Shown here: positions 11,596-25,154 of the stretch, in pieces
Position numbering within the stretch: the first letter of the stretch is position 1
How the letters are laid out: the number at the start of each line of letters is the position of its first letter
Origin: Natrinema longum
GTDB taxonomy: Archaea; Halobacteriota; Halobacteria; Halobacteriales; Natrialbaceae
Assembly: GCF_017352095.1 (NCBI RefSeq)
Contig: NZ_CP071463.1
Location: 2,604,001 to 2,668,000, forward strand
Length of the DNA: 64,000 bases
Direction of reading: 5' to 3'
Notes under the pieces: model-generated
What the model saw: only the letters and a program-made list of their open reading frames with translations
Told to the model about the DNA's origin: nothing
Database searches by the model: none
Program-made: the position numbers and the translations under genes

Positions 11596-12345
11596 ATGTG
11601 CGGTCGCTACACGCTCACCGTCCCAGACGAGGACCTCGAGGCCCGGTTCGACGCCCGGTTTCGGACCGCTGAGTCCGACTCGGGATCGGACGCGACGTTT
11701 ACGCCGCGGTACAACATGGCACCCGGCCAGGAGCTGCCGGTGATCACGAACGAGGAGCCGGAGACGATCCAGCGCCTCGAGTGGGGACTGGTGCCGTCGT
11801 GGGCCGACGACGACAGCGGCGGGCTCATCAACGCGCGGGCGGAGTCCATCGACGAGAAGCCGAGCTTCGAGTCGGCCTACGAGCGGCGGCGATGCATCGT
11901 TCCTGCGGACGGGTTCTACGAGTGGGTCGAGACTGCGGACGGAAAACAGCCCTATCGGGTGACCTTCGAGGACGATCGCGTGTTCGCGATGGCCGGCCTC
12001 TGGGAGCGCTGGGAACCGGCAACGACCCAGACGGGGCTCGACGCTTTCGGTGGCGGCGTCGAGGAGGCATCCGAGAGCGGCCCCCTCGAGACGTTTACCA
12101 TCGTCACGACCGACCCCAACGACCTCGTCTCGGAACTCCACCACCGGATGGCCGTCGTTCTCGAGCCGGCTGCGGAAGAACGGTGGCTGTCGGGCGACGA
12201 GCCCCGAGCACTGCTCGAGCCCTATCCGTCCGACGGGATGACGGCGTATCCGGTCTCGACGGCGGTGAACGACCCGGCGACGGACGAGCCGTCGCTGATC
12301 GAGCCGATCGAGGTCCTCGAGCGGAGCGGTGACCGAGGGTTATAG
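11596..12345 (+). CDS. SRAP/HMCES-type abasic-site processing protein
   Basis: A 249-residue SRAP domain protein. ATG at 11596 was chosen because the family needs Cys at position 2 ('MCGRYTL'), which becomes the N-terminal nucleophile forming a thiazolidine cross-link to abasic sites in single-stranded DNA. A longer frame would bury this cysteine. Other conserved features are 'PRYNMAPGQ', 'NARAES', the active-site Glu in 'DGFYEW', and the His in 'SELHHRMAVVL'. It acts in replication-linked repair. The last 6 bases overlap the convergent ABC permease gene. Its divergent neighbour is endonuclease IV. Confidence 0.9.
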   Translation: MCGRYTLTVPDEDLEARFDARFRTAESDSGSDATFTPRYNMAPGQELPVITNEEPETIQRLEWGLVPSWADDDSGGLINARAESIDEKPSFESAYERRRCIVPADGFYEWVETADGKQPYRVTFEDDRVFAMAGLWERWEPATTQTGLDAFGGGVEEASESGPLETFTIVTTDPNDLVSELHHRMAVVLEPAAEERWLSGDEPRALLEPYPSDGMTAYPVSTAVNDPATDEPSLIEPIEVLERSGDRGL

Positions 12346-13974
12346 CCCCTCACGCCCGCCCTGGGTGAGGAGGACGAGCAACGAGAGCCCGGAGACGGCG
12401 AGCAACAGCAGTGCGGGGATGACGGCGTACTGGAAGAACGCCTCGCCCTGTGCCTTCCAGATGATCGTGACGAGGGTTTCGAAGCCGGTCGGCCGAAGGA
12501 GTAGCGTCGCCGGGAGTTCCTTCATCGTCGTCAGGAAGACCAGCGCCGCGCCGGCGGTCACGCCCGGGGCGATGAGCGGCAGCGTCACCTTTCGGAACGT
12601 CCGCAGCGGCGTCTCGCCGAGCGTGTGTGCAGCTTCGACCAGTTTCGTATCGACCTGTAGCGTCGTCGTCCGGATCGAGCCGACGGCCTGGGGCATGAAT
12701 CGGACGACGTAGGCGAACACCAACAGCGGAATCGTCTGGTAGAGCGCCGGGAGGGTGGTCAGGCCGTACGACTGTCGAAGGGTCTCGTAGGTCGTCGCAA
12801 ACGAGACGAGTGCGAGCCCGAGTACGATACCCGGCACGGCGAAGCCGACGTAGGTCGATCGCTCGAACAGCGTCGACAGCGGCGACTCGTCTCTGGCCGC
12901 GACGTACGCGACCGGCAGGGCGACCAGGACGGCGACGAACGCGGCCGCGCCGGCCACCAGCAGGGAGTTCAGCGCGTACTCGAGTTCGAACGCGAGTTCG
13001 GGCCGTGCGTCCGGATCGGCGGTCACGAGCCAGAGGCCGAGGATCCACAGCGGCACCAGCAACGCGATCCCGGTCACGCCGGCGGGAAGGAGCGTCGCCG
13101 GCCAGCGCCATCGCCCGAGTTCCACGACGGGGCCGCCGGTCCCCTCCGACCCGTCGCCCTGGACCGTCCGGTCGGGTCGGACCCACCACTCGAGAACCAG
13201 GACGACGAGGACGATGACGAGCAGTTGCAACGAGAGAAAGGCGGCGTAGTCCCGGCCGAAGGAGCGATATTCGACGTAGATCTGCTGGGTGAAGACGGGC
13301 AGACGCATGATCGCCGGCGTCCCGAAGTCGGAGACGGCGTACAGCGCCGCGAGCAACGCCCCGGCGACGACGGCGGGTCGGATCTGTGGGAGCGTCACGC
13401 GGCGAAACGCCGTCCACGTATCGTGGTTCAGGGTGCGGGCGGCATCGAGCAGCGTCGTGTCGAACGACAGCAACGCGGCCCGGACCGTCAGGTAGACGTA
13501 GGGATAGGTGTAGAGCGTGATGACCAGGGTCGCACCGGGGAGGCCGTAGATTTCGGGCAACTGCTGGATCCCCAGTGGCTCGAGGATCGACTGGAACTCG
13601 CCCTGTGGTCCGAACGCCGAGACGAACGCGAACGCGCCGATGTAGCTCGGGACGACCAACGGGAGGGCCGCGACGACGGACCAAAAGCGGCGAAACGGGA
13701 GGTCCGTCTGGACGGTGAGCCACGCCAGGGGGACGCCGAGCAGCGCAGAGAGGACCGTGACGCCGGTCATTAACAGGAGGCTGTTCGTAACGATGGTCGC
13801 GGTTTGCGGGCGGACGAGCATCTCCCAGAGCCGGCCCGTGTCGACGGTCATCGCCTCGAAGAGGAGGTACGTAAGCGGGAACAGGACGATGACGGCGATG
13901 GCACCGGACAGGAACAACAGCCCGAGCGTCGGTCCGTCGGTCGTGTCGCGTCGTCGTGAGAGCAGAGATTTCAT
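12340..13974 (-). CDS. Fe3+-type ABC transporter permease (FbpB-like, two fused modules)
   Basis: A 544-residue permease with about twelve membrane helices in two halves. Each half carries an EAA loop contacting the ATPase: 'LDAARTLNHDTWTAFRRVTLPQIRP' and 'VEAAHTLGETPLRTFRKVTLPLIAPG'. Fused double permeases of this kind belong to the Fe3+ (FbpB/SfuB) family. No ATPase gene adjoins it, and the matching binding protein gene lies about 7 kb away. Its start is 207 bases from the divergent lipoprotein gene; the iron-box-like repeat in that gap is close to the other promoter, and I see no copy beside this start. Iron is the likely substrate but thiamine-type relatives exist. Confidence 0.85.
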   Translation of the reverse strand: MKSLLSRRRDTTDGPTLGLLFLSGAIAVIVLFPLTYLLFEAMTVDTGRLWEMLVRPQTATIVTNSLLLMTGVTVLSALLGVPLAWLTVQTDLPFRRFWSVVAALPLVVPSYIGAFAFVSAFGPQGEFQSILEPLGIQQLPEIYGLPGATLVITLYTYPYVYLTVRAALLSFDTTLLDAARTLNHDTWTAFRRVTLPQIRPAVVAGALLAALYAVSDFGTPAIMRLPVFTQQIYVEYRSFGRDYAAFLSLQLLVIVLVVLVLEWWVRPDRTVQGDGSEGTGGPVVELGRWRWPATLLPAGVTGIALLVPLWILGLWLVTADPDARPELAFELEYALNSLLVAGAAAFVAVLVALPVAYVAARDESPLSTLFERSTYVGFAVPGIVLGLALVSFATTYETLRQSYGLTTLPALYQTIPLLVFAYVVRFMPQAVGSIRTTTLQVDTKLVEAAHTLGETPLRTFRKVTLPLIAPGVTAGAALVFLTTMKELPATLLLRPTGFETLVTIIWKAQGEAFFQYAVIPALLLLAVSGLSLLVLLTQGGREGL

Positions 13975-14173: not shown

Positions 14174-14195
14174 TATAAGGTTTAGGTTTACCTAA
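14174..14195 (+). promoter_or_regulatory. TATA box plus iron-box-like operator TTAGGTTTACCTAA
   Basis: TATAAG starts at 14174 and the perfect inverted repeat TTAGGT-TT-ACCTAA occupies 14182-14195, 9 bases before the ATG of the Tat lipoprotein gene. The spacing implies a leaderless transcript, with the operator between TATA box and transcription start, where a bound repressor would block polymerase. The half-site TTAGG is that of DtxR/IdeR boxes. Confidence 0.75.
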
Positions 14196-14204
14196 TCCGC
14201 TCGC

Positions 14205-14750
14205 ATGGAGCTGACCAGACGGGACGCGGTCGCCGCACTGGCTGCGCTCGGCGGGGGGACGCTGGCGGGCTGTGCCGCTCCCAGAGGAGCGCCTCCCGAC
14301 GGGAACGGCACCGATTCGGGGGCCGACGTCGATACCGAACTGATTCGGGAGACGATGGTCGCGGCCGCCGAGGTCGTCTATCCAAGCGCGGTTACCGGGA
14401 CGCGGCCGTTCGTCGAGCGGTTCCTCGAGGGTCGACTGGCTGATCCGACACACGCCGCCGAACTGGACGCGGTGGTCGCGGAACTGGACGAACTCGCCGA
14501 CGCGTGGTACGCCGACGGCGTCGCGGCGCTGTCCGTGGCCGAACGCGATCGGTTCTTTCGAGAACTCCGCGCCGATACCGCCGAGGAGAACCCGGACGGG
14601 ACGACCGCCCAACGGGTCCGGTACTACGTCGTCAACGAACTCCTGGTGGCACTGTACGCCTCGCCCACGGGCGGGGAACTGGTCGGCATCGAGAACCCGC
14701 AAGGCCACGCGGGTGGAATCGAAAGCTACCAGCGGGGGCCACGATCGTGA
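14205..14750 (+). CDS. Tat-exported lipoprotein, gluconate 2-dehydrogenase subunit 3-like
   Basis: A 181-residue protein with a twin-arginine signal ('ELTRRDAVAALAALGGGTLAGC') whose lipobox cysteine is residue 23. The mature part, with 'MVAAAEVVYPSAVTGTRPFVERFLEGR' and 'NELLVALYASPTGGELVGIENPQGHAGG', matches the small subunit family of membrane-bound gluconate-type dehydrogenases. Its stop overlaps the GTG of the GMC oxidoreductase (GTGA), so translation is coupled. The small subunit probably carries the flavoprotein across the membrane in a folded complex. It is driven by the iron-box promoter just upstream. Confidence 0.8.
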   Translation: MELTRRDAVAALAALGGGTLAGCAAPRGAPPDGNGTDSGADVDTELIRETMVAAAEVVYPSAVTGTRPFVERFLEGRLADPTHAAELDAVVAELDELADAWYADGVAALSVAERDRFFRELRADTAEENPDGTTAQRVRYYVVNELLVALYASPTGGELVGIENPQGHAGGIESYQRGPRS

Positions 14751-16384
14751 GCGAGGCTCGATCGCCCCCCGAATCGGCAGCCCCCATCACTGACGAGGCT
14801 GTCGACCGAACGCCCGTCGCGGACGCAGACGTCTGCGTGATCGGGGCGGGCCCCGCGGGTGGGATCGTCGCGGACCGACTCGCCGAGGCCGGGCGCGAGG
14901 TCGTGATCCTGGAGGCCGGGCCGCGGTTCGATCCGGCCGACAGGCTCGCCAGACAGGAACGGGCGATCCGGCCGTTCTACGACCGGCCGGACGTCTGGGA
15001 CGGCGATCCCGAACGCGATGCGTACTCGGCGTCGGGCGACCGACACTACCCGCTGAACCGCGCCCGGGTCAAGGGCGTCGGCGGCTCGACGCTCCACTGG
15101 CAGGGGATGGTGATGCGGCTCCACGAGGCGGATTTCAACTCTCGGAGCGTCCGCGGAGTCGGCGCGGATTGGCCGATCGACTACGCGGACCTCCAGCCAT
15201 ACTACGCCGAGGCCGAGCGGGAACTGGGGATCGCCGGTGCCGCCGACAATCCCTTCGCGCCGCCCCGGGAAGAACCGCATCCGATGCCGGCGTTTCCGCC
15301 ATCCTACAGCGACAGCCTGTTCGCCGAGGCCTGCGACGAACTCGAGATCGCGATGCACTCCGTGCCGAACGCGCGCAACTCCGAGAGCTACGACGACCGA
15401 AGCGCCTGCGTCGGCTACGGCACCTGTCGACCGGTCTGCCCCTCCGGTGCGAAGTACGACGCGACGGTCCACGTCGAGCGCGCCGAGCGCAAGGGCGCGA
15501 CCGTGATCGATCGTGCGCCGGTCCAGCGTCTCGTACACGACGCCGACGAGATCGAGGCGGCCGTCTACGCAACCCCCGACGACGAGCGCCACCGCCAGGA
15601 AGCCGACGCCTTCGTCGTGGCCTGTGGCGGCGTCGAGACGCCCCGCCTGCTGCTCCTCTCGGAGTCGAGTCACTACCCCGACGGACTGGCCAACTCGAGC
15701 GGCCTCGTCGGCCGGTATTTCATGGAACACTCGTTTGCGGGCACGTTCGGCGTCCTCGACGAGCCGACCCGGCAGAACCACGTCGGCTTCCTGACCAGCG
15801 AGTCCCACCAGTTCTACGACGACGCCGACGCGGAGTACGCCCCCTTCAAACTCGAGTTCTTCAACTTCGCCGGCCCCTCGCCCGTCGGCATGGCGCTGAC
15901 CGGCGACGACTGGGGCGACGACTTGCTCGAGCGAATCCGCGGCGACTACGGCACTCACATCGCCATGGGCGCGCTGATCGAACAGCTCCCCCGCGAGGAC
16001 AGCTACGTCGGGCTCGACCCCGAGCGGACCGACGATCACGGCAACCCCGTCCCCCACGTCCACTTGACCGTCGGCGATCGAGCGCGCCGGACGATGGAGC
16101 GGGCAAACGAGATCCAGCGGGACGTCTTCGAGGAGCTGGGTGCCGAGATCGAGTGGCAGGACGGCCCCGAAAACACGATTCCGACCAATCATCACATGGG
16201 AACGACCCGCATGGGGAACGACCCCGCCGAGAGCGTCGTCGATCCCACGCTGCGAACGCACGACCTCGAGAACTGCTGGATCGCCTCGAGCAGCGTCTTC
16301 CCGACCGGCGGGGCTATGAACCCGACGCTGACGATCGCGGCGCTCGCGCTCAAGGCCGGAGACCACGTCCTCGAGTCGGTTTAG
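14747..16384 (+). CDS. GMC-family FAD oxidoreductase (gluconate dehydrogenase large-subunit-like)
   Basis: A 545-residue flavoprotein. The Rossmann motif 'VIGAGPAGGIVADRLAEAG' binds FAD, 'GVGGSTLHWQGM' is the GMC signature, and 'NHHMGTTRMG' carries the catalytic His. The insert 'CVGYGTCRPVCPSGAKYDA' has three Cys found in gluconate/sorbitol-type dehydrogenases. The protein has no signal peptide, so export as a hitchhiker with the upstream Tat lipoprotein is inferred. The start is GTG at 14747, overlapping the upstream stop. The sugar or polyol substrate and the electron acceptor are unknown. An iron-box-like promoter suggests metal-responsive expression. Confidence 0.85.
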   Translation: MSEARSPPESAAPITDEAVDRTPVADADVCVIGAGPAGGIVADRLAEAGREVVILEAGPRFDPADRLARQERAIRPFYDRPDVWDGDPERDAYSASGDRHYPLNRARVKGVGGSTLHWQGMVMRLHEADFNSRSVRGVGADWPIDYADLQPYYAEAERELGIAGAADNPFAPPREEPHPMPAFPPSYSDSLFAEACDELEIAMHSVPNARNSESYDDRSACVGYGTCRPVCPSGAKYDATVHVERAERKGATVIDRAPVQRLVHDADEIEAAVYATPDDERHRQEADAFVVACGGVETPRLLLLSESSHYPDGLANSSGLVGRYFMEHSFAGTFGVLDEPTRQNHVGFLTSESHQFYDDADAEYAPFKLEFFNFAGPSPVGMALTGDDWGDDLLERIRGDYGTHIAMGALIEQLPREDSYVGLDPERTDDHGNPVPHVHLTVGDRARRTMERANEIQRDVFEELGAEIEWQDGPENTIPTNHHMGTTRMGNDPAESVVDPTLRTHDLENCWIASSSVFPTGGAMNPTLTIAALALKAGDHVLESV

Positions 16385-16403
16385 TGTCGAATCCCCCTGC
16401 CTT

Positions 16404-16428
16404 TTAGGCAAACCTAAAAATATAAATA
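16404..16428 (+). promoter_or_regulatory. Iron-box-like operator TTAGGCAAACCTAA and TATA box
   Basis: TTAGG-CAAA-CCTAA spans 16404-16417 and extends to a longer match (TTTTAGG ... CCTAAAA). TATAAATA follows at 16421-16428, about 30 bases before the glycosyltransferase ATG. Here the operator sits at the BRE position just upstream of TATA, instead of downstream of it. Confidence 0.75.
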
Positions 16429-16450
16429 CGGAGGGCAGAGAGTACCGCCA

Positions 16451-17200
16451 ATGAGTAGCGGAGAGCAAACCGAGACGACGACCGAAACCGGCGAGGCGGA
16501 GTACACGTTCAACGATCTCAGCGTCGTCATGGGGACCTACAACGAGGAGGAAGCGATCGGCAAAGTGCTCGCGGACATCGAGGACGTCACCGACGGGAAG
16601 GCGGAGGTCGTCTGCGTCGACGGCTCCTCGGATCGAACGCCCGAGATCGCCCGCGAGCACGGTGCGACAGTCATCGAGCAAGAACCGCAGGGGTACGGCG
16701 TCGCCGTGCGCGCGGCGATCCTCGAGCCCGATCGCCCGATCGTCGTGACGACCGACTGTGACGACACCTATCCGATGGAGCAACTGCCCGAGTTCCTCGC
16801 GTTGATCAACGACGGACACGACGTCGTCAGTGGCGATCGGCTCTACCACGGTGCCGACGCGATGCCCGGATTCAATCGCTTCGGCAATCAGGTCTTCGCG
16901 GCGGTTGCGAGCGTCCTGATGGGCACTCGCGTCCACGACACGACGACCGGAATGCGGGCCTACCGCCGCGACGTTGTCGAATCGATCGAGTGGACCGAGA
17001 ACACCGGCCTGTCGGCCGAACTCCTGATCCGCCCGCTGATGCGAGGCTACGACGTCCGCGAGCACCCCATCGAGTACCGCGAGCGCGCCGGTCAGACGAA
17101 GCTCGATCCGCTGCAAGGCGGCGTCGAAATCGCGCGATCGATCGTCAAAGTCTCGCTCGAGGAGCGGCTCCGAGAGTTGCCCCACCGGCCGACGCAGTAA
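16451..17200 (+). CDS. GT2 glycosyltransferase, dolichol-phosphate mannosyltransferase-like
   Basis: A 249-residue GT-A enzyme with 'LSVVMGTYNEEEAIGKVLADIED' at the N terminus, the nucleotide-metal motif 'VTTDCDDTYP', 'GDRLYHGADAMPGFNRFGNQVFA' and 'LSAELLIRPLMRGYDVREHPIEYRER'. These fit polyprenyl-phosphate (dolichol-phosphate) glycosyltransferases, which load a sugar on a lipid carrier for later use outside the cell. There are no membrane helices, as in soluble DPM1. The nearby GT39-like enzyme would be the natural user of the lipid-linked sugar. The promoter carries an iron-box-like operator. Confidence 0.85.
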   Translation: MSSGEQTETTTETGEAEYTFNDLSVVMGTYNEEEAIGKVLADIEDVTDGKAEVVCVDGSSDRTPEIAREHGATVIEQEPQGYGVAVRAAILEPDRPIVVTTDCDDTYPMEQLPEFLALINDGHDVVSGDRLYHGADAMPGFNRFGNQVFAAVASVLMGTRVHDTTTGMRAYRRDVVESIEWTENTGLSAELLIRPLMRGYDVREHPIEYRERAGQTKLDPLQGGVEIARSIVKVSLEERLRELPHRPTQ

Positions 17201-17297
17201 GCACCGAGTCGAGCGTCGGTGATCCCTTTCGACCGAACGCACTCCAGCCCGCTCGACTGATTCCCCCGAAGACCGATCGTCGGCGGATCAGCGTCGC

Positions 17298-18341
17298 TCA
17301 ATAGTGGACGCTCCTCGTCAGGACGAAAACGAGCAACGCCATCAGGACCGAGCCGAGCAAGGTCTCGATGCTGGCGATCGCGCGAGCGAAGCCGGCGACG
17401 GGCTGGATGTCGCCGTACCCGAGCGTGGCGAACGTGATGATGCTGAAGTAGAGGCTCTTGAGGAACGCTCGAACGAGAACAGGGCCCGGCGTCTCGGCAG
17501 GGTCTTCGATCTGGTAGGTGACCGCGGTCTCCGTCCCGACTTCCTGAATGCCGCCGGTCAGCGGGTACAACGCGGCACAGACGAGAATCAGGAGCACCGA
17601 CGTCGCCACGACGCGCCACGGGCTCGTCCCGTAGTGCATGACCCAGCGCGAGCCGGCGAGCTTTATCCCCTGGAGGTACGCACCGACCCGCCACGCCTGT
17701 CGCCGGCGAAGGTCCATCTCACGCACGTAGTATGCGTGGACCTTCTCCGGAAACGCGTTCTCGTCGTACAGCCGCTGTAGCTCACGATACACCCATTTTG
17801 CGGAGTCGACCGGTTCGGTTCCCTCGTCGCTCGGCGGCGACCCGACGATGTCGTCCTCGTACACCGACCGCTCGTCGAACGCCGTCTCGAGGTTCAGCCG
17901 GACGTCGGTCAAGCCCGCACGATAGAGCCTCGCACCGCGGAAATCAGCACCGCGGAGATCGGCGAAGACGAACACCGCGTCGTGGAGGTTCGCGTTCCGG
18001 AACGACGTTCCGTGGGCGTCGATGTCCCGAAACGTGGCCCGCCGGAGATCCGTCTCCGAGAGGTCGGCACCGTCGAGGACCGCGTTCGTGAAATCCGCCT
18101 CGAGGAGTGATCGGCCCGCGAGGAACGACGCGCCGCTCAACGTCGTTTCTCGAAAGTTCGCCCCGTCGAGCCGTTCGTCTGGCTCCGGGGTGTTGCGCTC
18201 GTACTCGTCCCTCGGAACGACGCGCTCGGTGTGCCAGAGACAGCAGTCGGTCTCCCCCCACGTGGGCCGCCAGCAACAGATCGCCCCCACTTCGTCGACG
18301 CCGCTGCTGTTCGTCACGTGACCGCAACGCCTCTCGGTCAT
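17298..18341 (-). CDS. Pentapeptide-repeat ion channel with Cys-rich N terminus
   Basis: A 347-residue fusion of three parts. Residues 1-38 hold a Cys/His cluster (CGH, then CCW, CC and WH) that may bind zinc. Residues about 55-155 are pentapeptide repeats (A(D/N)LXX type: 'ANFRETTLSGASF', 'ADLSETDLRRATF', 'ADLRGADFRGARL'). After a helical linker come two membrane helices around a K+-channel pore, 'FATLGYGDIQP', with the selectivity filter LGYGD. It is thus a two-helix K+ channel with an unusual cytoplasmic sensor. It lacks the iron-box promoter of its neighbours and may be unrelated to them. Confidence 0.85.
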   Translation of the reverse strand: MTERRCGHVTNSSGVDEVGAICCWRPTWGETDCCLWHTERVVPRDEYERNTPEPDERLDGANFRETTLSGASFLAGRSLLEADFTNAVLDGADLSETDLRRATFRDIDAHGTSFRNANLHDAVFVFADLRGADFRGARLYRAGLTDVRLNLETAFDERSVYEDDIVGSPPSDEGTEPVDSAKWVYRELQRLYDENAFPEKVHAYYVREMDLRRRQAWRVGAYLQGIKLAGSRWVMHYGTSPWRVVATSVLLILVCAALYPLTGGIQEVGTETAVTYQIEDPAETPGPVLVRAFLKSLYFSIITFATLGYGDIQPVAGFARAIASIETLLGSVLMALLVFVLTRSVHY

Positions 18342-18405
18342 AGGCGTTTTGCGGGAAGTCGGCTCCTAACGTTGCTGCCTGAATAACCCCACTCCTGTTG
18401 ACGGA

Positions 18406-20613
18406 CTATTCGGGCTCGCTCGCCTCGAGTCGGGTCTCGAAGCGCTCCCACTCGCTGTGGCTGTCGGGCCGGTCGGGAAGGTAGGTCCCGTCGGCCCCGC
18501 AGTCGGTCACGAGCGGACAGGCAGTCCGTTCGGGCGGCCAGACCGCTTCGACGCCGTCGTCGGTCGTCCGGACGGGTATCTCCTGACGGTAGGTGTGGGT
18601 CGCCCCCTCCGGCTGGACCTGTGTGATCGTCAGGACGACCTCGTCGGCCCCGTCGAACGACACCGTCTCGGTCGTCGATCCGTTCAGCCGAGCGATACCG
18701 CCCTCTCCGGCGCTCGCGTTCCCATCGGTTTCGGAGCCTGCAGCGCGCTCGAGCGACCACGCGATAGACAGTTCGTCGTCGGGATTCACGATCGTCTCGC
18801 TGGCGACCTCGCCGTCGTTCTCGAGGCGAACGTGTGCCCGGTCGACCCGACGGGCGATCCCGACGGTGGTTTCGCCGTCGAGGCGCTCGCCCGACCGGAC
18901 CGACAGCTCCTCGAGTCGGGCGACGACCTCGTCGTCCGGTGTCGCCGTCCACTCGCCGCGGTAGCTGTAGCGGTAGTAGTTTCGGTCGGGGTAGGAATCT
19001 AGTACCGCGAAATCGCGGGCAGGGGGACCCTCGAGTGCGTAGACGACCTCACCGTCGAGACCGCCGTCGTTCCGGAGTGCCTGGAAGGGGTGGCCCTGCC
19101 ACTGGCCGTAGGGTGTCGGGAGGAAGACCAGTGCGTTCTCGAGGTCGCGCTCCTCGAACGGCTCGTAGGCGGACTCGAACCGCTCGGTGTGGGCAGCGTT
19201 GCGCTCGACCGGAGCCGAGAGGAGGGCGGCGTTCGCCGCGCCGGCGACGAGCACGCTCACGAGCAAGGCGGCGAGAACGACGGCTCGAGCCGTCCGCGGG
19301 GACGCGACGGTGGCGATCCGGTTTCGGATCGCGACGTTGCGACACTGCCGCCAGCCAGCGACGACGGCGAACGCGGCGAAGATCGACAGCGGGACGAGGA
19401 GGTCGAAGTGATAGAACGGACCGAACTTCGAGAGGAGACCGGTGGTCGGATCGGCGATTCCGGCGTGGACGTTGTAGTTGCCCCAGAACGCGAAATTGCC
19501 GAGCGAGACGGTGACGAAGAGGCCGGCCAGAAGCAGGCCCGCAGTTCGGTCGCTCCGGCGGTCACGCTCGCCGTCGGCGTCGCGACCGGGGAGCCAGTGC
19601 CACAGCGCGAGGGCAAGACCTGCGAGTGCGGTGACCGTTCCGATCAACCCCGCAGTGAACCACCGCGTGGCGAAGTACCAAAGGGCGGCGCTGTTCGCCT
19701 CGAAGGCGACGGCCGGCGTGTACTCGAGCGAATGATCGAGCAGTTCGCGATGACCGAAGCCGGGGCCATCGAGCGGGGCGAAGGCTGCGTACGGAAAGGT
19801 GAGGGGTGACCCCGTGACCCGGACGTTGTACGCGAGCGTCAGACCGACGAACGCGAGTCCGGCCGCGGCGGTGACGGCGTTTCGCCGAACGGGATCCGGA
19901 AGCGGTCGGAGCCGGTTGTCCCGCCAGCGATGGCGGACGGACCGCAGGATCGTCCAGGCTGCGTGACAGATGAACGGACCGGCGAACAGGACGGCAGTGT
20001 ACGGTCGGGCGAAGAAGGCGAGTCCGATCGCTGCCCCGGCGACGGCGGCATCCCGAAGCCTGCCAGTACGGAGGCCACGGAGGTACCACACCGCGAAGAC
20101 GAGATTCAACACCGTCGTCGGCGCGTACGGGAGAAACGCCGACGACGTCAGGAGCGTCATGGGGGCGGCGGCGAAGACGGCCGCAGCGACGACGCCGACC
20201 TGTCGATCGAAGACCATCGATCCGAGGACGTAGACGAGCGCAGCGTTCCCCATTGCGACGGCGACGAGCGTCACACGCGGCTCGCCGAACAGCGCCATCG
20301 CCACGGCGTACATCGCGGGGATAACCGGCGAGTACTTCGAGTAAAGCCGGCCGCCGTCCTCGACGAAAAACCACGGTCGGAACGCGTCGGCCAACTCGCC
20401 GGCGTGTATCTCGAGTTGCCCCTCGAGCAGCATGGCTGCTTGCAGGAGGTAGACTCCCTCGTCGTCGTTGCTCGAGTGGTAGGGAAAGAGCTCGGTTGCG
20501 AGTATCGCCACTGCGAAGCCGGCGAGACAGACGACGGCGAGTGCGGCCAGGTCGAGACGGCGTTTCCGGTTGTCCATTACCGACCGGACCGTACGAACGG
20601 GATCGCGGATCAC
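18406..20613 (-). CDS. GT39/PMT-like membrane glycosyltransferase
   Basis: A protein of about 735 residues with ten or more membrane helices followed by a C-terminal extracytoplasmic domain of about 250 residues rich in beta structure. The first loop holds 'SSNDDEGVYLLQAAMLLEGQL', the acidic pair expected of GT-C enzymes, and 'RLYSKYSPVIPAMYAV' follows, as in the ArnT/PMT fold. Such enzymes transfer sugars from polyprenyl-phosphate carriers to acceptors outside the cell. The start is GTG at 20613; ATG at 20577 is an alternative. It begins 18 bases after the binding-protein stop, so the two should share the iron-box promoter. Confidence 0.75.
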   Translation of the reverse strand: MIRDPVRTVRSVMDNRKRRLDLAALAVVCLAGFAVAILATELFPYHSSNDDEGVYLLQAAMLLEGQLEIHAGELADAFRPWFFVEDGGRLYSKYSPVIPAMYAVAMALFGEPRVTLVAVAMGNAALVYVLGSMVFDRQVGVVAAAVFAAAPMTLLTSSAFLPYAPTTVLNLVFAVWYLRGLRTGRLRDAAVAGAAIGLAFFARPYTAVLFAGPFICHAAWTILRSVRHRWRDNRLRPLPDPVRRNAVTAAAGLAFVGLTLAYNVRVTGSPLTFPYAAFAPLDGPGFGHRELLDHSLEYTPAVAFEANSAALWYFATRWFTAGLIGTVTALAGLALALWHWLPGRDADGERDRRSDRTAGLLLAGLFVTVSLGNFAFWGNYNVHAGIADPTTGLLSKFGPFYHFDLLVPLSIFAAFAVVAGWRQCRNVAIRNRIATVASPRTARAVVLAALLVSVLVAGAANAALLSAPVERNAAHTERFESAYEPFEERDLENALVFLPTPYGQWQGHPFQALRNDGGLDGEVVYALEGPPARDFAVLDSYPDRNYYRYSYRGEWTATPDDEVVARLEELSVRSGERLDGETTVGIARRVDRAHVRLENDGEVASETIVNPDDELSIAWSLERAAGSETDGNASAGEGGIARLNGSTTETVSFDGADEVVLTITQVQPEGATHTYRQEIPVRTTDDGVEAVWPPERTACPLVTDCGADGTYLPDRPDSHSEWERFETRLEASEPE

Positions 20614-20631
20614 GAGGTCTGTGGCGGGTGG

Positions 20632-21756
20632 TTAGACGTTGATGCCCTCGACGCTGCGCATGAGATCCAGCGTCGGCTGGAGGTCGGACAGTTCGGACGG
20701 GTCGAGGTCCGGAACGTCCAGTTCGGGGATCGTCGGGAGTTCGCCGACCGGATTGCCCTCGGGGATGAGCGGATATTCGAACGTTTCGACCGCGAAGTAC
20801 TCCTGGACTTCCGCCGAGAGCAGATGTCGGACGAAGTTCTCCGCCAGATCGGGCACGTCTGTGTTTTCGATAACGGTTGCGCCCGCGATGTCGAAGGTAG
20901 CGCCCGCGTCACCGTCGGTAAACACGGTTTCGAGGGGTGCGTCGGGCGATCCCTCGAGAACGCGCTGGATGTAGTAGTGGTTGGTGAAGCCGGCGTCGAT
21001 CTCGCCGTCCGCGACGGCCTGACAGACCGCCATCTCGTTGTTGTAGGCCGAGATTCCCGCATCGACGACGCCCTCGAGCCACTCGCGGGTCGCCTCCTCG
21101 CCCTCGAGCAGTCGCATCGCAGTGACGAACGACTGGCAGGAGCCATAGGAGGGGGCCCAGCCGAGGTCGCCCTCGAAGTCGGTGTAGGCGTCGATGCTCG
21201 TTGGCATGTCGCTCTCGGAGAACGCGTCCGTGTTGTAGGGCACCGTCCGGATACGGCCGGAGGTCCCGACCCACTGGTCGGTTCGGAACTCCTGGGGAAC
21301 CATCTCCAGGACGTCGTCGGAGAGCGACCGCGACAGGCCCTCGTTCGCGATCTCGCCGAGCGCGGCCGAGTCGACGGTAAAGAAGACATCTGCGTCCGTT
21401 CCCGACCCCTCCTCGGCGATCTGGTTTGCCAGATCCGAGGAGTCGTTGTATCGCGGCCCGACGACCTCGAACCCGTCGTACATGTCTTCGAGGCTGTTGA
21501 TGAGCGTCCCGACGAGGAACTCGTTTCGCCCGGAGTAGATGTGGAGTTCCCCCTCGAGTTCGGGGAGGTCCGCCATCGGCGTCCCCCCAGGCTGGTCGCG
21601 ACCCGCGCGGCCGGAGCCGATCTGATTGAACACGTTCTCGTCGTCTTCCTCTTCGCCCCCGATCAGGCCCGTACAGCCGGCCAGACCGGCCGTACCGAGC
21701 GCGGCAGAGCCGGCGAGAAACGCCCGTCGGCCCGCGGAATCGTATTCCTTCGTCAT
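20632..21756 (-). CDS. Fe3+-type ABC transporter substrate-binding lipoprotein (FbpA-like)
   Basis: A 374-residue Tat lipoprotein: 'AGRRAFLAGSAALGTAGLAGC' gives the twin-arginine motif and the lipid-anchored Cys. The mature protein begins with an acidic linker, then 'LHIYSGRNEFLVGTLINSLED', 'DVFFTVDSAALGEIANEG' and 'TVPYNTDAFSESD', the class of periplasmic ferric-binding proteins. 'GDAGATFDIAGATVIENT' near the end is also typical. It would capture ferric iron at the cell surface for the permease gene 6.7 kb away. The promoter has TATAAG, an iron-box-like operator, then 5 bases to the ATG. The GT39-like gene follows immediately. Confidence 0.87.
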   Translation of the reverse strand: MTKEYDSAGRRAFLAGSAALGTAGLAGCTGLIGGEEEDDENVFNQIGSGRAGRDQPGGTPMADLPELEGELHIYSGRNEFLVGTLINSLEDMYDGFEVVGPRYNDSSDLANQIAEEGSGTDADVFFTVDSAALGEIANEGLSRSLSDDVLEMVPQEFRTDQWVGTSGRIRTVPYNTDAFSESDMPTSIDAYTDFEGDLGWAPSYGSCQSFVTAMRLLEGEEATREWLEGVVDAGISAYNNEMAVCQAVADGEIDAGFTNHYYIQRVLEGSPDAPLETVFTDGDAGATFDIAGATVIENTDVPDLAENFVRHLLSAEVQEYFAVETFEYPLIPEGNPVGELPTIPELDVPDLDPSELSDLQPTLDLMRSVEGINV

Positions 21757-21761
21757 GGGTT

Positions 21762-21787
21762 TTAGGCTGGCCTAAATACACTTATAG
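21762..21787 (-). promoter_or_regulatory. Iron-box-like operator TTAGGCTGGCCTAA with TATA box
   Basis: The operator spans 21762-21775, a perfect TTAGG-N4-CCTAA repeat (in fact TTAGGC-TG-GCCTAA). On the minus strand CTATAAG lies at 21787-21781, and the ATG at 21756 follows 5 bases after the operator. This repeats the layout of the promoter at 14174 and implies a leaderless transcript. Confidence 0.78.
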
Positions 21788-22948
21788 TCATCGATTCCCC
21801 ACAACGGCCGCGGGTCGCTCGAGGGCCGAGAGACACTCGAGCCAGTCGAGCATGTGTTCGCCGACGTAGTTGAAGAACGCGCCGTTGTTGTACGCGTCCC
21901 AGTCGCCGTCGGCGAGTTCGATGGCCATCGCTTCGAAGACGTCGGCGTAGTCGTCTGCGTCGCCGCCGACACCGTCGATTACGCGCCAGAGGTGCTCGTT
22001 GAGTTCGAGGCCCGGCACTTCGTTGTTGAGGTCGTCGAACGTGCTCCGGGGAGCCTTGTTGTGCTCACAGAGGGGCGCGCCGTTGTAGATGCGTTTGCCC
22101 AGCACGTCGCAGGCCCGTTTGAGGAAGACGCCCGACCAGATGTCGTCGAAGCGGCCGACCTCCCACTCGTTGTCGTCCATCGGCAGCTGGTAGAACGCGG
22201 GGATCACCTCGCGCCGGAAGGCGAGGTTCATCGAGCAGACGGTGAGGTAGTTGCCGCGAGCGGCGACGAAGTCGTCGCCGAAGTCGTCGCTCGAGGTACG
22301 GGTCTGGGCCTGGCCCTCGAGGTCGCCGTCCATGAGGATGCGGACGGCGTCGAGATCGGGGACGTTGGTCCACAGCCCCTGGGAGGCGACGACGTCGCCG
22401 CCGTCGATCTCGGTCGTCCCAGTTTCGACCGTTTCGTTCATCGCCGAGTAGGGGTAGCCACGCGGGTAGAGGCCGTGGTCGTCGGCGTTCTGGTAGAGGA
22501 CGTTGACCCACTGCTCGTCGGAGGAAACTTCCTCGATCTCGCCCTCGAACGCGATGTTTTCCATGTGCATCCCGAAGAAGTCCTGATCCTCGTGGGGAAG
22601 CGTGTCGTCGTCGATGAAAAAGCCGTAGTCGAACTCGTCGTGGGCCCACATGTAGAGCAGGCCGAAACTCGTCTCGGCGTGGCTGGCGGCCGGAACGACG
22701 TGGCCGTACTCCGCCACGTCGTGGTCGTCGTACCACTCCTCGCGACGGCTGCCATCGAAGACCTCACCCGAGACACCCTCGTCCTCGAGCATCGCTTCCA
22801 TCTCGTCGGTGTCACAGAAGTCCTCGGTGACGAGGACGACGTGCAACCGTGAGAGGTCGAAGCCGTGGGTGCGAGCGTTCGCGAAGTACGAGCGCATACA
22901 CTCGTACTCCCGGATCGTCGGGACGATCACGCAGATATCCTGACTCAT
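21788..22948 (-). CDS. GT75/RGP-like glycosyltransferase (alpha-1,4-glucan-protein synthase family)
   Basis: A 386-residue soluble acidic protein. 'VIVPTIREYECMRSYFANARTHGFD' at the N terminus and the metal-binding 'YGFFIDDDTLPHE' give a GT-A fold close to the reversibly glycosylated polypeptide (UDP-arabinopyranose mutase) family; 'GRFDDIWSGVFLKRACDVLGKRI' is a further conserved block. Members interconvert or transfer nucleotide sugars. ATG at 22948 was preferred to a GTG at 22972 because the latter lies inside the operator. It follows the flippase-like gene and has its own iron-box-like site overlapping that gene's 3' end. The exact reaction is unsure. Confidence 0.65.
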   Translation of the reverse strand: MSQDICVIVPTIREYECMRSYFANARTHGFDLSRLHVVLVTEDFCDTDEMEAMLEDEGVSGEVFDGSRREEWYDDHDVAEYGHVVPAASHAETSFGLLYMWAHDEFDYGFFIDDDTLPHEDQDFFGMHMENIAFEGEIEEVSSDEQWVNVLYQNADDHGLYPRGYPYSAMNETVETGTTEIDGGDVVASQGLWTNVPDLDAVRILMDGDLEGQAQTRTSSDDFGDDFVAARGNYLTVCSMNLAFRREVIPAFYQLPMDDNEWEVGRFDDIWSGVFLKRACDVLGKRIYNGAPLCEHNKAPRSTFDDLNNEVPGLELNEHLWRVIDGVGGDADDYADVFEAMAIELADGDWDAYNNGAFFNYVGEHMLDWLECLSALERPAAVVGNR

Positions 22949-22955
22949 TGCACCG

Positions 22956-24113
22956 TTATTTTTTAGGCTCACCTAAAAACGTATCGGTCCCCCGCGTCGC
23001 GTCCGGGTTCGACTCCGCAGCGTCGGAAAGCGAAATCCCGAGCGAGGCGACGGAACCGGCACCGCCGACCAGCGTGACGCCGTTTTTCAGTGCGTGATCG
23101 ACGATCGCCGCGGCCAGGGCCGTGCTCGCGCCGATCGGCGTCAGTCCGACGACCAGTGCCGTGAACGCGGCCTCGTAGAGCCCGACGCCGCCCTGGGACA
23201 GCGGCAGGACCTTCGCGAGGTTCCCCACGCTCACCGCCAGCGTTCCGACCGCCAGCAGCGGGCCGACTGCGAGCCCGCTGCCAAGCGCCGCGAGGACGAG
23301 GACCGCCGTGAGCACGTCGAGTATCCACACCAGTAGACTCCCCATCCCGATGGTTGCCAGCGCTCGCGGCTGCCGGGCGACCACCTGTACGTCGCCCGCG
23401 AATCGGAGCGCCGTCTCGAGCAGTCTTTCGAGGCGCGATCGACCGTCGACTCGCCTCCGAAGCCACGACCCCAGACCGTGATCGGCTCGAGCGGACGTCA
23501 CGACCACGAACCCGACGCCGACGGTCGCCGTACTCACGGCGGCTGCAGCGACGAGCGCGGTCCGCGCGCCGCCGGCCTCCGCGAGGATCTCGAGGGGACC
23601 GGCCGCGCCGCCCAGTACGAGCCACGTCGTCGCGAGCCCCGCGAGGGCGGCGATCGTCGCCAGATCGAAGACCCGTTCGACGGCCAGCGACGCGAAGCCG
23701 GCGGTGTAGGGAACGTCGCGGTAGGTGTTCATCACGTACGCGCGAACCGCGTCGCCTCCCCGCGCCGGGATCACGAGGTTCGCCGTCTGGCTCACGAAGA
23801 CGGCTCCCGTGGCAAACGCCGTCCCCCCGCGGTGGCCGATCGCGGCCAGCACGTCGCCGTACCGGCGACCCCTGAGCGGCCACGAGGCGACGTACACCGT
23901 GACTGCCGCCACGAGCACGAGCGGATCGGCACTCGAGATCTCGGCGGCGACGGTCCGGAGGTCGATCTCCCGGAGGGCGACGAGCAGGCCGAGTACGACG
24001 AGGACGGTTCCCGCAATCGTCAGTCGACGGCGGGTCAACGCCCCGGCGAGCCCGCCGCTCCCGGAGCCGTCGGCGGGCGCTTCCGATCTCGATCGCTCCC
24101 CCCCGTCGTTCAT
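22956..24113 (-). CDS. Flippase-like / LPG-synthase-type membrane protein
   Basis: A 385-residue protein with eight to ten membrane helices of the lysylphosphatidylglycerol synthetase TM family (UPF0104, also found in AglD). Typical blocks are 'WPLRGRRYGDVLAAIGH', 'VSQTANLVIPARGGDAVRAYVMN', 'AVERVFDLATIAALAGLA' and 'VLPLSQGGVGLYEAAFTALVVG'. Such proteins handle lipid-linked substrates and often accompany glycosyltransferases. The acidic N-terminal 30 residues are cytoplasmic. Its last codons encode 'FLGEPKK' across an iron-box repeat that serves the next gene, and a slightly imperfect box lies before its own start. Confidence 0.8.
   Translation of the reverse strand: MNDGGERSRSEAPADGSGSGGLAGALTRRRLTIAGTVLVVLGLLVALREIDLRTVAAEISSADPLVLVAAVTVYVASWPLRGRRYGDVLAAIGHRGGTAFATGAVFVSQTANLVIPARGGDAVRAYVMNTYRDVPYTAGFASLAVERVFDLATIAALAGLATTWLVLGGAAGPLEILAEAGGARTALVAAAAVSTATVGVGFVVVTSARADHGLGSWLRRRVDGRSRLERLLETALRFAGDVQVVARQPRALATIGMGSLLVWILDVLTAVLVLAALGSGLAVGPLLAVGTLAVSVGNLAKVLPLSQGGVGLYEAAFTALVVGLTPIGASTALAAAIVDHALKNGVTLVGGAGSVASLGISLSDAAESNPDATRGTDTFLGEPKK
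22963..22976 (-). promoter_or_regulatory. Iron-box-like operator TTAGGTGAGCCTAA within upstream gene's 3' end
   Basis: On the minus strand this reads TTAGG-TGAG-CCTAA, flanked by T and A runs. It lies 15 bases before the RGP-like gene's ATG and inside the last codons of the flippase-like gene. An AT-rich run (GTTTTTA) overlapping its upstream edge could serve as the TATA element. Confidence 0.7.
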
Positions 24114-24133
24114 AGCGATCCCTCTCGAGGCCA

Positions 24134-24152
24134 GATATTTAAGCCCACCTAA
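24134..24152 (-). promoter_or_regulatory. Imperfect iron-box-like operator TTAGGTGGGCTTAA with TATA box
   Basis: The minus strand reads TTAGG-TGGG-CTTAA over 24152-24139, one base away from the consensus, running into TTAAATATC at 24142-24134, a good TATA element. The flippase-like ATG is 20-25 bases further on. Operator overlap with the upstream edge of TATA resembles the 16404 promoter. Confidence 0.65.
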
Positions 24153-24224: not shown

Positions 24225-25154
24225 TTACTGCAGTTCGTCGATGATCTCGCGCGTCGACCGGCGGACCGCCTCGTCGCTCGCGTAGCGGGGCTCCCAGCCA
24301 AGCGCCGAGAGCTTCTCGATCGAGAGGCGCATCTTCGGGACGTCGCCGGTCCAGCCCCGCTCGCCGCCGGTGTACTCGTGGTCGGGATCGACGCCCAACT
24401 CGTCGGCCACGATGGCCGCGATCCGGTCGACGGAGGTCGTCGTCCGCGTCCCGAGGTTGTAGGTGTTCATCGCGTCGTCGGCGTGCTCGATCGTGTGGAG
24501 GATCGCATCGAGGCAGTCCTCGACGTGGAGGTAGGACTTCTCCTGCCGGCCGTCGCCGAGAACCGTGAGGGTCTCCGGGTTCTCCCGGAGCTTCTCGATG
24601 AAGTCGGGGATCACCGCTCCCCGCAGGCGCGGCCCGACCACGTTCGCGAACCGGAAGTTCCAGACCGTCAGCTCGTGGCTGTGGGCCCGCGCGGAGAGTA
24701 AGCCCTCGTCCGCGAGTTTGCTCGCCCCGTAGGCGCTGATCGGCTCGAGGGGCGCGTAGTCCTCCGGCGTCGGCCGCGGTGCCTCGCCGTAGACCGTCGA
24801 GGAGGAGGTGTACGCGATCTCCGTGACCCCCGCGTCGGCCATCGCCTCGAGAACGGTGCGGGTCATCCGCGTGTTGTCGTCGAACTGGGCGTGGGGCCGG
24901 TCCGTGTCGACGTGTTTCGACGCCGCGAGGTGGACGACGAGGTCGACGTCCTCGAGGTGGCCCCCGAGGGCGTCGGGATCGGTGAGGTCGGCCTCGAGGA
25001 ACGTGGCCGCCTCGGGCACGCGGTCGCGGTCCCCGTTCGAGAGGTCGTCGACGACCGTCACGGTCGCGCCGTCCGCGAGCAAGCGCTCGGTGAGATGCGA
25101 GCCGATGAACCCGGCACCGCCCGTGACGAGCACGTCTCGGTTCGAAATGGGCAT
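24225..25154 (-). CDS. NAD-dependent sugar-nucleotide epimerase/dehydratase
   Basis: A 309-residue extended SDR enzyme. NAD-binding 'VTGGAGFIGSHLTERL' is at residues 10-25, 'VHLAASKHVD' follows, the catalytic Ser/Thr is in 'YTSSSTVYG', and the catalytic Tyr-Lys pair is in 'SAYGASKLADE'. 'FRFANVVGPRLRGAVIPDFI' is typical of UDP-glucose 4-epimerase relatives. It would produce a nucleotide sugar for the glycosyltransferases upstream. The start 'MPISNRDVLVTGG' at 25154 is clear. No iron-box repeat is visible before this gene. Confidence 0.88.
   Translation of the reverse strand: MPISNRDVLVTGGAGFIGSHLTERLLADGATVTVVDDLSNGDRDRVPEAATFLEADLTDPDALGGHLEDVDLVVHLAASKHVDTDRPHAQFDDNTRMTRTVLEAMADAGVTEIAYTSSSTVYGEAPRPTPEDYAPLEPISAYGASKLADEGLLSARAHSHELTVWNFRFANVVGPRLRGAVIPDFIEKLRENPETLTVLGDGRQEKSYLHVEDCLDAILHTIEHADDAMNTYNLGTRTTTSVDRIAAIVADELGVDPDHEYTGGERGWTGDVPKMRLSIEKLSALGWEPRYASDEAVRRSTREIIDELQ

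Follow-up and report, generated by a model that had tools for sequence, protein, structure and literature searches.

Iron regulons usually contain transporters, siderophore genes, and storage functions, and the DtxR/IdeR iron box of actinobacteria is 19 base pairs (bp) long. Here we describe a palindromic operator, TTAGG-N4-CCTAA, which recurs in a 64-kb stretch of the Natrinema longum genome (contig NZ_CP071463.1, positions 2,604,001 to 2,668,000; this whole stretch is called the window hereafter) before genes for a ferric ATP-binding cassette (ABC) transporter and a putative dolichol-phosphate (DolP) sugar pathway. The operator shares with the actinobacterial box the TTAGG half-site, the palindromic form, and the location at iron-uptake promoters. 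The likeness to a DtxR/IdeR box that an earlier note on this DNA had drawn therefore holds for the half-site but not for the 19-bp architecture, as the consensus of 181 distinct exact sites in relatives is a 16-bp palindrome, TTTAGGYNNRCCTAAA, with a 4-base centre, and the reader proposed below lacks the metal ligands of DtxR.

DtxR-family iron regulons of haloarchaea are already known (Leyn and Rodionov 2015; Martinez Pastor et al. 2024; both as cited in PMC11349517), and the same source reports that every fhu gene of Haloferax volcanii lies behind the Leyn–Rodionov regulon signal; an iron signal in haloarchaea is thus not new as such. The present system resembles that regulon (Leyn–Rodionov signal; Idr1/Idr2 of Halobacterium; TroR/Idr/SirR of H. 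volcanii) in having DtxR-family regulators, siderophore ABC transporters behind the signal (PMC11349517), and an additional small DtxR gene that carries the same operator. The excerpted description of the known regulon makes no mention of a glycosylation/FbpABC locus. Of the novelty that the earlier note saw in a metal-controlled surface-glycan programme, the part that appears to stand is the conserved glycosylation module inside a haloarchaeal iron regulon.

The glycosylation genes resemble those of polyprenyl-phosphate sugar pathways (ArnC/ArnT, DPM1/PMT, and mycobacterial decaprenyl-phosphoryl-arabinofuranose with Emb/Aft), in which a GT2 enzyme loading polyprenyl phosphate is likewise combined with a GT-C transferase. 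A possible pyranose–furanose mutase acting upstream is a further likeness, whereas the present genes differ in being tied to ferric transport and to an iron-box-like operator. Another haloarchaeal GT2 enzyme making a DolP-sugar outside N-glycosylation is AepG of Haloarcula hispanica, the DolP glucuronosyltransferase of acidic exopolysaccharide, which differs in sitting in an N-glycosylation-type cluster and for which no iron link is reported (PMC9943897). Complexes of flavin adenine dinucleotide (FAD)-dependent glucose/fructose dehydrogenases also have a GMC α subunit with a cysteine motif and a small twin-arginine translocation (Tat) subunit, but here no cytochrome subunit is adjacent and an iron-box operator is present. 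Based on the comparisons described below, a DtxR-family repressor probably releases ferric uptake together with the DolP-sugar pathway under iron limitation, the control by iron being the part that we infer.

Occurrence and promoter position of the operator

Pattern searches found 22 exact copies of TTAGG-N4-CCTAA in the 3.59-Mb genome of N. longum, compared with only one for the control, in which the pattern was read backwards; the motif is promoter-specific genome-wide. Allowing one mismatch brings no enrichment (14 further copies, with 41 for the control), which implies a strict sequence requirement, and one-mismatch sites were relied on only where conserved. In the window, all five inverted repeats reported in the earlier note were found, four exact and one with a single mismatch, and no further site exists there at up to one mismatch, in agreement with that note. 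The five operators, listed without a strand, are as follows.

14182..14195: exact operator TTAGGTTTACCTAA, before the Gluconate_2-dh3 lipoprotein/GMC pair; the divergent fbpB start is 208 bp away
16404..16417: exact operator TTAGGCAAACCTAA, directly 5′ of the GT2 TATA element
21762..21775: exact operator TTAGGCTGGCCTAA, between the TATA element and the start codon of fbpA
22963..22976: exact operator TTAGGCTCACCTAA, 14 bases 5′ of the ATG of RGP; it shares bases with the 3′ end of the flippase gene
24139..24152: single-mismatch operator TTAAGCCCACCTAA, 5′ of the flippase gene

Given the lack of enrichment of one-mismatch copies, the 24139 site is weak on its own, but it is rescued by the conservation of the flippase operator in 23 of 25 relatives (10 exact and 13 with one mismatch).

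The operators end 9, 33, 5, 14, and 25 bases before the annotated ATG (sites 14182, 16404, 21762, 22963, and 24139, respectively), all within the ~50 bases previously suggested. A nearby TATA element, suggested for every site, is clear at 14182, at 16404 (3′ of the operator), and at 21762, and no separate one is obvious at 22963. Where a gene clearly follows, most operators end 5–9 bases before its ATG and have a TATA-like element just 5′ of them; in the GT2 promoter, the operator lies on the opposite side of the TATA element from this usual layout. The nearness to the ATG is as expected for leaderless haloarchaeal transcripts, and a repressor bound there would cover the start region. At several promoters the TATA element is flanked by tandem operators, mostly 34–36 bp apart (tandem pairs occur at L021:5072/5106 and 6723/6757, L019:4806/4842, L026:4658/4694, L016, and L025), and other haloarchaea also show operator pairs 20–21 bp apart. 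At L021:6522-6713 and L025:4559, operators precede a short reading frame or none, possibly decayed binding-protein genes of which the promoter was kept.

Gene content and conservation of the locus

The gene calls made in the earlier note proved right, the proteins being FbpA-like, GT39-like GT-C, GMC with Tat lipoprotein, DPM1-like GT2, RGP/GT75-like, and LPG_synthase_TM flippase-like. The genes of the locus, including a nucleoside diphosphate (NDP)-sugar enzyme, are as follows.

12340..13974, − strand: FbpB-type ferric ABC permease (PF00528), in 58 of 63 RGP loci
14205..14750, + strand: Tat lipoprotein of the Gluconate_2-dh3 family (PF13618), sugar dehydrogenase small subunit
14744..16384, + strand: GMC sugar dehydrogenase of the FAD glucose/fructose dehydrogenase α-subunit type, with a C-x6-C-x3-C motif
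16451..17200, + strand: GT2 dolichyl-phosphate hexose synthase (NF041391, 409 bits, cut-off 375; DolP-mannose synthase, E 1e-11)
18406..20613, − strand: GT39-like GT-C glycosyltransferase (PF13231, PF25230)
20632..21756, − strand: FbpA-type ferric-iron binding lipoprotein (E 1.5e-54 to ferric-binding proteins)
21788..22948, − strand: RGP, a GT75-like candidate NDP-pyranose mutase (PF03214; MtdL, E 8e-23)
22956..24113, − strand: flippase-like membrane protein (LPG_synthase_TM, TIGR00374)
24225..25154, − strand: NDP-sugar epimerase/dehydratase, in 21 of 63 RGP loci, without its own operator

The order RGP–FbpA–FbpB–(FbpC)–GT39 recurs, often with a convergent GT2 gene, across 20 loci from many families and 63 loci of named organisms, and FbpA lies near RGP in 61 of the latter; the flippase, the NDP-sugar epimerase, and the Gluconate_2-dh3/GMC pair are added in Natrinema, Halorubrum, and other relatives. 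Among named organisms, the nearest relative identified is Natrinema ejinorense, whose RGP shows 98% identity. The 63 loci of relatives (1.28 Mb) contain 187 exact operators and none of the control pattern. The conservation in orthologous promoters that the earlier note had made a check on its reading was found across the order: an operator precedes RGP in 62 of 64 cases (46 exact and 16 with one mismatch), FbpA in 54 of 61 (all exact, with zero one-mismatch sites), GT2 in 42 of 43 (30 and 12), and the Gluconate_2-dh3 lipoprotein in 32 of 38 exactly and in one more with one mismatch. In all 29 RGP orthologs with a readable promoter, an exact operator stands directly before the gene; one sequence (L075), for which a false reading frame had been chosen, is excluded. 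Before GT39, GMC, FbpC, the NDP epimerase, MinD, and aRF1, the count of operators in the 63 loci is zero.

Within the order, 77 of 117 genomes encode RGP; GT2 occurs in exactly these 77 and is missing from the remaining 40. These counts describe a sample of genomes in which related members are not independent events. A search for GT2 in 25 of the RGP-less genomes gave no match, an absence that is meaningful because a later search returned positives. A pentapeptide-repeat/ion-channel gene also lies within the locus (window positions 17298-18341) and is present in just one of the 63 relatives.

Predicted glycosylation pathway

When RGP was aligned to the GT75 NDP-pyranose mutase MtdL, for which a DDD motif, Ser228, Arg257, and His287 have been described (PMC9937993), the DDD motif, the Ser, the Arg, the Mn-binding His, and the RGP arginine were conserved in 63–64 of 64 relatives and in every one whose sequence covers them; the position of MtdL Gln229 is occupied by Met here. 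For the GT39-like protein, no convincing sequence relative of its profile was found in PDB, but the AlphaFold model (pLDDT, 87) matches oligosaccharyltransferase (OST), ArnT, PMT, and ALG12 with Z-scores of 22–27, and Asp45–Glu46 are invariant; the fold search thus settled the predicted structure as the GT-C fold of polyprenyl-phosphate-sugar transferases. In FbpA, the Tyr–Tyr pair is invariant (62/62). It is plausible, judging from the protein families, that RGP, GT2, the flippase-like protein, and the GT-C enzyme form one pathway, in which RGP would make the activated NDP-sugar, GT2 would load the sugar onto DolP, the flippase-like protein may turn the DolP-sugar outward, and the GT-C enzyme would transfer the sugar to a surface acceptor outside.

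Regulon targets and candidate regulator

Outside the window, the operator lies 5′ of Peripla_BP_2-type siderophore binding lipoproteins (L018, L021, L022, and L026), a lipoprotein with a similar N-terminal layout and no Pfam match (L022:5937-7037), a FecCD permease (L022:7943-9052), and an FbpC-type ATPase (L023). Iron-siderophore transporters predominate among the targets beyond the window, which supports the iron-box-like regulon proposed in the earlier note, and with ferric and siderophore uptake as the targets, iron is most likely the controlled variable.

Three DtxR-family proteins (TroR-type, FeoA-type, and small) were found, as anticipated for a haloarchaeon. The TroR-type protein (L030:3658-4092; orthologs L096-L107 and L206-L225) is encoded beside sufB/sufD and contains the domains Fe_dep_repress (PF01325, 4e-17) and Fe_dep_repr_C (PF02742, 6e-12); to judge from the suf linkage, it probably corresponds to TroR HVO_0863 of H. 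volcanii. The 111 genomes having the suf-linked TroR-type regulator or its sister clade contain 1150 sites (140 for the control), versus 2 sites (13 for the control) in six genomes that lack a close TroR-type gene and are 58–78% complete. In the TroR clade, the equivalents of Met10, His79, His98, Cys102, and His106 are lost and replaced mostly by Gln, Tyr, Arg, Arg, and Ser, while Cys77, Cys121, Cys124, and Cys132 are kept in 28 of 28 members and in 33 of 33 when the sister clade, which has both the canonical metal ligands and the four cysteines, is included. It can be hypothesized that iron is sensed through these cysteines, possibly via an iron–sulphur (Fe–S) cluster. Of the three proteins, the suf-linked TroR-type one is the most likely reader of the motif.

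Proposed regulation and alternative explanations

We propose that the palindrome serves as operator for an iron regulon in haloarchaea and that a DtxR-family repressor reads it, the suf-linked TroR type being the most likely one. When iron is plentiful, the repressor would sit on the TATA/start region of the mostly leaderless promoters and keep the genes off; when iron is short, it would leave, and the ferric ABC transporter (FbpA, FbpB, and FbpC) and the DolP-sugar pathway would be turned on together. A conserved DolP-sugar pathway and a ferric ABC transporter on one operator across the order would link iron status to surface glycosylation, and suggest that cells short of iron remodel part of the sugar coat on their surface. 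The locus also supplies candidates for the genes of a glycosylation pathway in haloarchaea and draws attention to an unusual kind of iron sensor, and the glycan–iron link should be readily testable in H. volcanii, which has good genetics and carries an RGP gene. More speculatively, and with considerable doubt on our part, a dedicated surface glycan or glycoprotein, possibly containing a furanose, might capture Fe(III) or modify the FbpA receptor under iron limitation, the exported sugar dehydrogenase might help to release or reduce iron, and the metal site of the repressor might have been replaced by a four-cysteine (thiolate or Fe–S) sensor.

Several observations weigh against the proposed iron control. 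The iron-starvation proteome published for H. volcanii, in its excerpted form, names no glycosyltransferase, though this species has RGP, and no published connection of glycosyltransferases with iron starvation in haloarchaea came up in literature searches. Without the canonical ligands in the TroR clade, sensing of Fe2+ in the manner of DtxR does not follow, and the incompleteness of the six TroR-less genomes makes the co-occurrence of regulator and motif suggestive only. Some of the 22 genomic sites that lack a convincing target (e.g., L020 and L024) may also be due to chance.

Among the alternatives, the operator may be metal-controlled but respond to manganese or another metal, or to redox or Fe–S status, rather than to free Fe2+. 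This possibility, which we rate well below control by iron, draws on the exchange of five canonical ligands for four invariant cysteines, on the adjacency of the TroR-type gene to sufB/sufD, and on the requirement of GT75 enzymes for Mn2+ or Mg2+ (PMC9937993), yet the targets in ferric and siderophore uptake make iron supply the controlled variable whatever signal is sensed. It is unlikely that the glycan genes are co-regulated merely by their position in or near an iron operon and have a housekeeping role in the envelope unrelated to iron: GT39 indeed lacks an operator and is carried along with fbpA, but RGP and GT2 each have their own, that of GT2 being conserved although the gene lies on the opposite strand, and the two genes are gained and lost together across the order, with FbpA kept near RGP.

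A slightly smaller chance is given to reading of the motif by another DtxR paralog, either the small N-domain protein or the FeoA-type protein. The gene for the small protein (L017:4493-5023; 128 residues, without metal ligands) has an operator ~130 bp upstream, and is itself behind such an operator in four genomes of the genus Natrinema as well as in several more, but its clear orthologs are patchy (~23 of 117 genomes) while the motif is general, so that it was ranked below TroR. The FeoA-type protein was also ranked below TroR, since motif enrichment does not track it; being present in five of the six genomes poor in the motif, it is an unlikely reader. That the palindromes arose by chance or are structural elements such as terminators or repeats is extremely improbable; the lack of enrichment of one-mismatch copies genome-wide and the failure of the window by itself to reach significance at two mismatches would fit such an origin, whereas the excess of exact copies over the control, both in the genome and in the loci of relatives, and the fixed promoter position contradict it.

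Sugar dehydrogenase pair and other genes behind the operator

The GMC protein is related to FAD glucose dehydrogenase (E 1e-88) and to the large subunit of fructose dehydrogenase (2e-85), and its cysteine motif is kept in 33 of 34 relatives; by analogy with these dehydrogenases, the motif is presumably an Fe–S site. A sequence search for a relative of the Gluconate_2-dh3 lipoprotein with a solved structure found none. A probable Fe–S sugar dehydrogenase under an iron-box operator is unexpected, as an iron-using enzyme would then belong to an iron-starvation regulon. A DUF5059–cupredoxin lipoprotein of 822 residues (L016:4080-6548) is also found behind an operator and is a possible electron partner, and DUF7551/DUF7552 and DUF7260 genes (L019:4906-6707) lie behind a tandem operator.

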